DNA of 55,123 nucleotides from Salinivirgaceae bacterium (GTDB lineage: Bacteria > Bacteroidota > Bacteroidia > Bacteroidales > Salinivirgaceae), in contig PKTE01000072.1 in assembly GCA_002869335.1 (NCBI GenBank), positions 1-55,123 of the forward strand, read 5' to 3'. Position numbers and translations under genes: made by a program. Of the stretch, positions 25,326 to 33,397 are shown piece by piece. The notes below the pieces were generated by a model. That model saw only the letters and a program-made list of their open reading frames with translations. It ran no database searches and was not told the DNA's origin. How positions within the stretch are numbered: the first letter of the stretch is position 1; every line of letters starts with the position of its first letter.

Positions 25326-25781
25326 ATGACAACAACAGAAGTAATAAATGAGAAGAAAATCCAAAGTTCATTTAATGAAGTTTTTTCAAAAGAATATGGT
25401 TCACTTTATGTGATAGAGGATAAAAAAATCATGATTTGCGAAGCAAAACGTGAGTATTTAACAATAGAAGAATTTCAGGAAATGTTCAATGCAACTGTGC
25501 CTTTTATTGATGAATTTAAAATTGAGAAATTTATTTTTGATAAGCAGAATATGCGTGTATTCCACCAACCATCAATGGAGTGGTATTATGTACATTGGAA
25601 AAAAGCAATGTATGAAAAAGGATTAAAAGTTCACCGTAAAATTCTTCCTCAAAATCAACCACAATTTAATATGGCTGTGGAAGCAGGCAAAAATCAAATA
25701 CGCATGAAGCATCCTGATTTGGTTGTAGACAAGTTAGATATGCAATACCGAAATTCAGTTCAAGAAGCTATTGAAGATTAA
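25326..25781 (+). CDS. Hypothetical protein linked to a SpoIIE-type phosphatase (possibly STAS/SpoIIAA-like)
   Basis: 151-aa ORF 28 bp downstream of the phosphatase; LTIEEFQEMFNATVPFIDEFKIEKFIFDKQNMRVFHQPSMEWYY. Confidence 0.6.
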   Translation: MTTTEVINEKKIQSSFNEVFSKEYGSLYVIEDKKIMICEAKREYLTIEEFQEMFNATVPFIDEFKIEKFIFDKQNMRVFHQPSMEWYYVHWKKAMYEKGLKVHRKILPQNQPQFNMAVEAGKNQIRMKHPDLVVDKLDMQYRNSVQEAIED

Positions 25782-25912
25782 GTTTTAATCGCTTATTAAT
25801 AATAGTGTGTAATTATTTAAATTGAAAGAACAAAAGTAAGATCTTAAATGTTAATATATTGATATATATATACTAGTAAATAATAGTAAATGTAGTTTTA
25901 GTTAGTTAGTTT

Positions 25913-25956
25913 AAAAAGCTGTTTTGATGCCAATCAAAGCAGCTTTTTGTTTTTTG
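25913..25956 (+). terminator. Intrinsic terminator
   Basis: AAAAAGCTGttttgatgccaatcaaagCAGCTTTTTgttttttg. Confidence 0.75.
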
Positions 25957-25999
25957 ACATTTTAAATTCTTATTTTGCAAAGAATCATATTTACAGATT

Positions 26000-26140
26000 A
26001 TGAAAATACAATTCATTTTTGCCTGGTACGATCTCTGGATTGGTGCCTTTTGGGATAAAAAGAAGCGTTGGCTTTATATTTTGCCTTTGCCAATGATAGG
26101 AATTATTTTGAAGTTTGAAAAGAAGACTGACGAGAATTAA
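26000..26140 (+). CDS. Small hypothetical protein (46 aa), possible membrane-associated
   Basis: ATG at 26000, TAA at 26138-26140: MKIQFIFAWYDLWIGAFWDKKKRWLYILPLPMIGIILKFEKKTDEN; not in the supplied ORF track. Confidence 0.6.
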   Translation: MKIQFIFAWYDLWIGAFWDKKKRWLYILPLPMIGIILKFEKKTDEN

Positions 26141-26479
26141 TAGTCAAAAGCTAAGTGCCAAGAGCAAAGAGCTAAGAGCTAGGAGTCAAGGGTCAGGGGT
26201 CAATAGCTAAAAACTATTCACTCATTCTTAATTACTCTTAATTTCTTAATGGTTCAAAAAAAGTTAAAAGCTAAGTGCTAAGTGCCAAGAGTCATGGGCA
26301 AACAGCTACAAACTATTCACTCATTCTTAATTACTCTTAATTTCTTAAAGGTTTAATAAAAGCTAAAAGCTAAGAGCAAAGTGCTAGGAGCCAAGGGTCA
26401 GGGGTCAATAGCTACAAACTATTCACTCATTCTTAAATGCTCTTAATTTCTTAATGGTTCAAAAAAAGTCAAAAGCAAT
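26141..26479 (+). repeat. Composite array: runs of 10, 7, 8 and 2 heptamers separated by three copies of a 50-bp constant block
   Basis: Constant block aaactattcactcattcttaattactcttaatttcttaatggttcaaaaa at 26211, 26310 and 26416; heptamers such as gagctaa, gagtcaa, gggtcag, gtgccaa in exact register. Confidence 0.9.
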
Positions 26480-26608
26480 CTACCGACCACTAATAGCAAA
26501 AGAGATATAAAAATCTAGATATCAGGATAAATAGAATGGTTTCGCAGTAGTGCAATTATCTCCCGGATAAGCTATATATTTAGCGCGAAAAAAACTAAAT
26601 ACTGCGTC

Positions 26609-27358
26609 ATGAATGAAGAAAACCAATTTCACATTAGCTTTTTCAAACCTACAACTGAAAGGGCAAGAAGAAATCGAAATAAGGTCGTTGTCCTGGTTTC
26701 TATCTGGGCAATTGCCGTTTTTGGTTTCCATTTTTTATTGAAAGCCATTGAAAAACCTACACCTGAGCCTGTTTTACTAGAGTTTAATAAGGTTTGGGAT
26801 AAAGTGAAAGCTGATGAAGCTTCCACAGCCGAAATGCAGGTTTTTGCTAAAAGTGTATTGCAGGTTACAGGTAAGGTTTTTATTCAACCTAACCACAGAG
26901 CTGCATTCAATAATGGTTTAACCTGGGCTACATTTAAATTAGCTGATTCAGCTCAAAAAGTGGCTATCAAAGAGGCACTTGTGGATTTTGAGAAAGTAGC
27001 CAAAAATGTTGAGATGCTGACGGATGATAAATACCAAAGCGCAAAAAGTAAATTAGCTGCATTGGCGGCGGTTCCATTGGGATTAAACTCAAATGAATTG
27101 ATTGCTAAATTTTTGCCTTTGGAATTGAGGAGTAGCATGATGGATAGTTTTAGCGAAAAGCAAAAGGCTGTTGTGGCAGAAGCCATGCCTTTTTATACAA
27201 TCCATAATCAGTCGGTATTGACGGATACGAAATTTCTTGGATTTCCTTTCCATTATTTCTATACCGCTGTATTCTTGCTCATTCTTTTCATTGGGATTTG
27301 CTGGTTCTACAGTTATTCAACTGACCGTATCAACAAAAAATTGGGTATTTACGAATAA
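26609..27358 (+). CDS. DUF4212-like sodium/substrate symporter small subunit with large insertion
   Basis: TERARRNRNKVVVLVSIWAIAVFGFHFLLKAIE N-terminus and FLGFPFHYFYTAVFLLILFIGICWFYSYSTDRINKKLGIYE C-terminus flank roughly 150 inserted residues; followed by an SSS symporter. Confidence 0.7.
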   Translation: MNEENQFHISFFKPTTERARRNRNKVVVLVSIWAIAVFGFHFLLKAIEKPTPEPVLLEFNKVWDKVKADEASTAEMQVFAKSVLQVTGKVFIQPNHRAAFNNGLTWATFKLADSAQKVAIKEALVDFEKVAKNVEMLTDDKYQSAKSKLAALAAVPLGLNSNELIAKFLPLELRSSMMDSFSEKQKAVVAEAMPFYTIHNQSVLTDTKFLGFPFHYFYTAVFLLILFIGICWFYSYSTDRINKKLGIYE

Positions 27359-33199: not shown

Positions 33200-33359
33200 G
33201 TAAAAGCAGCCACAATAAACCTTCTATATTTTGTAGACATGTAAGTTTTTTCATCGCAATTAATGGCTTCTAAGTTTTAGTAAATGATGAAAAATTTATG
33301 TGAAATTTAGTTAGAATTTACTAAGTAACTTTTAGTAACTTACTTTTAGTAACTTACCT

Positions 33360-33397
33360 TTTGTAATTTAACTTATTTGTTATACTTTTGAAGTATA
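33360..33397 (+). promoter_or_regulatory. Promoter with overlapping palindrome upstream of the ATPase gene
   Basis: TTTG (33360-33363), N19, TACTTTTG (33383-33390); palindrome TATACTT-ttg-AAGTATA 33381-33397 covers the -7 box. Confidence 0.65.

Follow-up and report, generated by a model that had tools for sequence, protein, structure and literature searches.

The intervening sequence of the Coxiella 23S rRNA gene has terminal inverted repeats and, ahead of its ORF, tandem heptamers (GACAGAT) whose copy number varies between strains, and it is suspected of being mobile (PMC4990558). According to the available part of the report on them, TAACTGA repeats form strict 7-bp direct arrays in intergenic regions of Beggiatoaceae, Cyanobacteria and Bacteroidetes (MacGregor 2015, PMC4679880); an earlier note on the DNA studied here had mentioned heptanucleotide repeats in cyanobacteria and had known of no described element with the present architecture in Bacteroidota, a phylum for which this publication already documents heptamer arrays. 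Dispersed four-heptamer elements of G. metallireducens (GGACCGG, 49 copies) are presented, in the accessible text, as a putative regulatory RNA (PMC2700814), and BrickBuilt of Porphyromonas gingivalis is outlined in the portion available as an intergenic MITE with a 23-nt minisatellite and IS5-like ends (PMC4596501). So far, such intergenic arrays, and palindromic repeats of short words, which are also common between bacterial genes, have been attributed to slippage or to a regulatory function. Here we analyse an array of heptamers and constant blocks in a 55,123-nucleotide stretch of Salinivirgaceae DNA (the window), which we consider likely to be a tandemly triplicated, gene-less hybrid made of solo arms of two small cassette classes.

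The heptamer and block array of the window

Positions 26141-26479 parse into 10, 7 and 8 degenerate heptamers alternating with three constant blocks and ending in two trailing heptamers (Table 1). The gapless parse and its coordinates, already given in the earlier note, are right, including the start of the array directly after the stop codon of a 46-aa ORF, and we agree that the array is non-coding. A Pfam search with the 46-aa ORF gave no match. In all 25 heptamers of arrays 1 to 3 (25/25), position 3 is G and position 6 is A. The blocks are spaced by 99 and 106 bp, which reproduces the earlier values, and share 93-95% identity across about 60 bp. Since arrays 1 and 3 have the same end units, the entire 99-106 bp unit was duplicated. 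The array also stands above chance: its lag-7 match of 41/56 is the top score of the whole 55-kb window, where none of 200 dinucleotide shuffles went beyond 35, and heptamer array 1 alone gave 43/63 matches, against at most 32 across 5000 shuffles.

Table 1. Features of the array and its surroundings, in window positions
Feature	Position	Strand	Remarks
46-aa ORF	26000..26140	+	stop codon immediately 5' of the array; outside the element; from sequence
Heptamer array 1, 10 units NNGYHAN, word type GAGCTAA/GAGTCAA	26141..26210	+	putative four-helix-bundle-type arm; shuffle statistics, C146 word
Constant block 1	26211..26260	+	holds the putative GxxExxY-type right arm, 26226-26262
Heptamer array 2, 7 units	26261..26309	+	from the parse
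Constant block 2	26310..26359	+	right-arm core 26325-26361
Heptamer array 3, 8 units	26360..26415	+	end units GGGTCAG GGGTCAA TAGCTA as in array 1
Constant block 3	26416..26465	+	right-arm core 26431-26467
Two trailing heptamers	26466..26479	+	from the parse
DUF4212 gene upstream region	26507..26608	+	kept in G002 without the array; outside the element

The locus lies outside any 23S rRNA gene, with protein genes on both sides; the DUF4212 gene downstream occupies 26609-27358. No inverted partner of the array was found within 25780-26620, so it has no terminal inverted repeats of the kind seen in a MITE. It is accompanied by neither a PF13366 gene nor an inverted left arm, and PF05635 was absent from the window contig among the matches listed. 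A scan of the array against Rfam gave no match at the gathering score, and among the known IS, MITE and Rfam families we found none that would explain it, in line with the earlier note. We considered a CRISPR and rejected it, as the sequence between the blocks is itself periodic and does not consist of unique spacers. Elsewhere in the window, nearly four 14-bp direct repeats (TTTTAGTAACTTAC) at 33317-33370 form an operator-like stretch upstream of the next gene.

Two cassette classes and their arms

Genes of the four-helix-bundle family PF05635 (23S-IVP) were present in 42 of 60 relatives, and we compared 80 named PF05635 loci that span Bacteroidota and numerous further phyla. Loci taken from metagenome bins, here and below, may be mislabelled; one labelled 'Limnohabitans' resembles Flavobacterium. 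A 7-bp periodicity was found in 36.7% of the flanks touching these genes, against 2.0% of distant and 10.3% of distant-intergenic segments, and an 8-bp periodicity in 10.8% of near flanks against 0.3% of distant ones; no other period gave anything comparable beside PF05635 genes. In a second set, drawn from the relatives of the window genome, the figures were 60% vs 2% for period 7 and 22% vs 1% for period 8. GxxExxY genes, treated below, had no comparable enrichment of the 7-bp signal (6.1% beside the gene vs 4.2% in the control), and therefore the heptamers belong with PF05635. In 56% of 77 loci one flank was an inverted copy of the other, a proportion that fell to 3.5% when partners were swapped; arms were undetectable at 31 of the 80 loci. 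Most of these genes (64/70) share the strand of both neighbours, and two are reversed.

The window genome, a draft that is 85% complete and in which ORFs were called mechanically, provides the link to the array. On its contig C146 a PF05635 gene is followed by TAGCTCA TAGCACT TTGCTCT AAGCACT and further units, which is the window word in reverse complement (score 23.4; control 99th percentile, 7.7). This gene has one clear arm, on a single side, and a contig end lies nearby. On these sequence comparisons, we describe the class A cassette as a PF05635 gene bracketed by two arrays of a 7- or 8-bp word in inverted orientation and read the window heptamers as such an arm. Solved structures related to the four-helix-bundle protein are 2gsc and 2rld, and we know of no catalytic site in this protein. 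The idea that the protein determines whether the period is 7 or 8 was discarded, as the two periods cluster little on the tree of the proteins, where the 18 minority rows require 15 changes. Two PF05635 genes from an Omnitrophota bin (L170) and an Atribacterota bin (L189) are 74% identical and have matching arms, a likeness that suggests either transfer between phyla or contamination of the bins.

The constant block leads to a different gene family. Its 3' 37 bases recur at 21 places of the genome at E<=0.001, the three of the window included, and at 44 at E<=10, so that the outcome of a block restricted to this locus, which the earlier note had named as a refutation, did not occur. The block forms the right arm of an inverted repeat, AACCATTAAG...CTTAATGGTT, that is scattered through the genome. 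In constant block 1 this arm reads CTTAAT-n4-CTTAAT-n2-CTTAATGGTTCAAAAAA; in the neighbourhoods inspected in the window genome, the usual form of the repeat is AACCATTAAGAAGTTAAGATTCATTAAGA ... TCTTAACTAATCTTAATGTCTTAATGGTT, located between genes and often starting from a stop codon. Within the genus this inverted repeat brackets GxxExxY (PF13366) genes: in G001 clusters of the repeat lie on either side of three such genes, and the window genome has a GxxExxY gene with block-type arms on contig C81. The word of the block, with its spaced copies and GGTT end, was also found beside GxxExxY genes in the window genome, G001 and G058.

PF13366 genes occurred in 29 of the 60 relatives and in none of 14 well-known control genomes (0/14). 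Other words (CACAAAG, CACAGAG, CGCAAAG, CGAATTA and CAGATTA) flank GxxExxY genes in the same layout, frequently with the GGTT end. At 29 of 40 GxxExxY loci the similarity between flanks exceeded the 99th percentile of distant segments, compared with 1.3% for swapped flanks; the other 11 lacked detectable arms. When two loci from different families (L240 and L050) were aligned, the match extended from (TTT)TAACCACAAAG to CTTTGTGGTTAAA or a near copy, and beyond these ends the loci were not clearly similar. These genes are co-directional with their neighbours in 24 vs 4 cases, a weaker orientation bias than that of PF05635. As judged from such comparisons, the class B cassette would be a GxxExxY gene between inverted arms, each with three spaced words of about 7 bp and with the ends AACC...GGTT, and the window block its right arm. 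As a separate observation, ATTAAG-arm clusters at one locus of G001 (L039) adjoin IS3-type transposase ORFs and genes that by eye resemble HipA/HipB and AbiEi/AbiEii, and palindromic repeats of the CTGAGCTTGTCGAAG type were seen within or next to ATTAAG arms at four loci of the window genome (L006, L007, L021 and L026).

The GxxExxY alignment has the invariant residues E34, D74, E84, K86, Q98 and Y102 (E..D..ExK..Q..Y). A PDB sequence search gave no real match. The AlphaFold model (pLDDT 95) retrieved with Foldseek, as its top match, SSO0001 (E 5e-3, probability 0.98), which we take to be a Cas4-family protein, followed by LHK-Exo and lambda exonuclease. GxxExxY is thus predicted to be a PD-(D/E)XK nuclease of the Cas4/RecB type, a call based on motif plus fold, as the E-values are modest.

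Signs of mobility of the cassettes and probable origin of the window copy

Genes and their arms recur jointly at unrelated sites. Among protein pairs at least 70% identical that are located at sites without shared context, arms were common to 83% in both families (6 pairs each); among more distant pairs the value was 2-5%, apart from a single GxxExxY bin with 10% among 21 pairs, and it was 0 for far control segments. The junction between fadB and fadA of Flavobacterium, compared with one genome per species, looks like an insertion hotspot. Three species have nothing inserted there, with fadB and fadA 3-5 bp apart; the junction carries a PF05635 cassette in five and gene-less inverted arms in about 17, and holds other inverted elements in three. 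Two PF05635 types were found there, each with its own word common to several species. The gene-less forms fold into hairpins (z -2.2 to -5.9) with two-sided compensating changes at 4 of 12 consensus pairs. The difference between empty and filled junctions could reflect deletion instead of gain, the two being indistinguishable there, and the many words at this one site could reflect turnover in place. The junction loci (L250, L253-L281) also include a CCCCCTAACCCCC...GGGGGTTAGGGGG form (L253, L270) and a GGTCGCTCCTACGGAGC type (L278). Taken together, both classes apparently act as mobile cassettes, of which derivatives without a gene also exist.

The earlier note had treated the array as a single undescribed element. 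This is unsupported, as heptamers and block belong to two element classes whose arms also occur separately. The window copy is most likely a tandemly duplicated relic in which gene and hairpin are absent, and it is probably inert. Its hybrid nature is not unique, since at another locus of the same genome (L025) an ATTAAG left arm is repeated together with heptamers of the AGCTGAG type; elsewhere in this genome the co-occurrence of heptamers and ATTAAG arms is weak (2/16 vs 1/171, p 0.02). At several loci PF05635 and GxxExxY genes lie a few kb apart, so their arms could mix. A single intergenic region (L018) has AGCTAAT heptamers, an ATTAAG arm, a CGCAAAG-type arm and ACTCNAA heptamers in series, as if cassettes had inserted into one another.

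How such arms might arise can be outlined tentatively. The product of the cassette gene would act on its own word and move or copy the cassette: the GxxExxY nuclease could cut the arms or the cruciforms, starting the copying, and the four-helix-bundle protein may bind the arms. The 23S intervening sequence is cut by RNase III (PMC4990558); by analogy, a hairpin formed at the arms in the transcript may render an intergenic insertion harmless. Solo arms could be left by deletion, or by the entry of one cassette into the arm of another, and tandem duplication would then spread them.

Other origins of the array were weighed against this one. Replication slippage could generate 7-bp runs anywhere and unequal crossing-over the 100-bp unit, the nearby genes being incidental. 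The unit is plainly tandem-duplicated, 7-bp arrays also occur in 10% of far-intergenic segments, and in many bacteria no long simple repeats are more frequent than heptamers, for which slippage has been proposed in the work reviewed in the accessible part of PMC4679880. Slippage, however, predicts neither the pairing with one protein family, nor the inverted symmetry, nor a common word for similar genes at unrelated sites; it is already disfavoured for the class as a whole, and we regard it as unlikely for the window array.

A regulatory array, in which proteins or RNAs would bind to control either the DUF4212/sodium-solute symporter operon downstream or the 46-aa gene, is quite improbable in our judgement. 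TAACTGA heptamers located shortly before start codons have been proposed, in the part of the report available, to bind a translational regulator (PMC4679880), and the window array is located between co-directional genes; yet the homologue in G002, of the same genus, keeps the upstream region with the array absent, the RNA fold of the array is no better than that of shuffles (z +0.68), and the same arms adjoin unrelated genes. Very improbable is a REP/BIME-like repeat moved by a Y1 (RAYT) transposase. The repeats are intergenic, palindromic and multicopy and the genome encodes three Y1 transposases, but the three Y1 genes that we inspected within the genus lack flanking 7- or 8-bp arrays, the pairing is with other proteins, and the arms are word arrays instead of a single 20-40 bp hairpin with a GTAG/CGTC tag.

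Beyond the hybrid of solo arms proposed for the window, a broader reading is about evenly balanced in our estimation: that the two classes are very widespread, so far unrecognised mini-elements whose protein reads its own word in the inverted arms, and that the ubiquitous intergenic heptamer and word repeats are their arms and remains.

Relation to known repeat systems

A limited literature search found no published gene-repeat pairing for either class, save the Coxiella intervening sequence. The TAACTGA arrays differ from the window array in their word, in their nearly invariant units and in having been interpreted as translational binding sites, and the available part of that report does not mention a link with a gene family (PMC4679880); neither TAACTGA doublets nor GGGACCG arrays were found beside the PF05635 genes examined. 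The G. metallireducens elements are dispersed heptamer arrays, as here, but a gene pairing is not described in the accessible text (PMC2700814). BrickBuilt, like the window array, is an intergenic element of Bacteroidota that mixes tandem repeats with inverted ends; its unit, in contrast, is 23 nt long, and the portion of the source at hand does not mention a pairing with PF05635 or PF13366 (PMC4596501). REP/RAYT systems and REPINs, as far as the available parts of the reports go, resemble the present cassettes in that a small gene goes with repeats located between genes and non-autonomous derivatives exist (PMC2817692, PMC3116915), whereas the cassettes use other protein families and periodic word arms that vary with the gene. 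Repeats of this kind linked to GxxExxY genes were not found in the partly accessible literature covered by our limited search, and an earlier report is possible.

The combination that defines class A, a PF05635 protein with terminal inverted repeats and heptamers, is already known from the Coxiella intervening sequence, and the 23S rRNA intervening sequences of Coxiella, Leptospira and Salmonella encode the same protein family (S23p/PF05635). The present loci differ from them in lying between protein genes, in their locus-specific words and in their many gene-less, arm-only forms; the window copy itself has neither gene nor inverted arms. Assigning one protein family to each repeat class would give heptamer and word repeats a likely source and makes the roles of two very common small proteins, the four-helix-bundle IVP and GxxExxY, testable. 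Furthermore, it would connect the long-standing puzzle of the 23S rRNA intervening sequences with a large set of similar insertions among protein genes.
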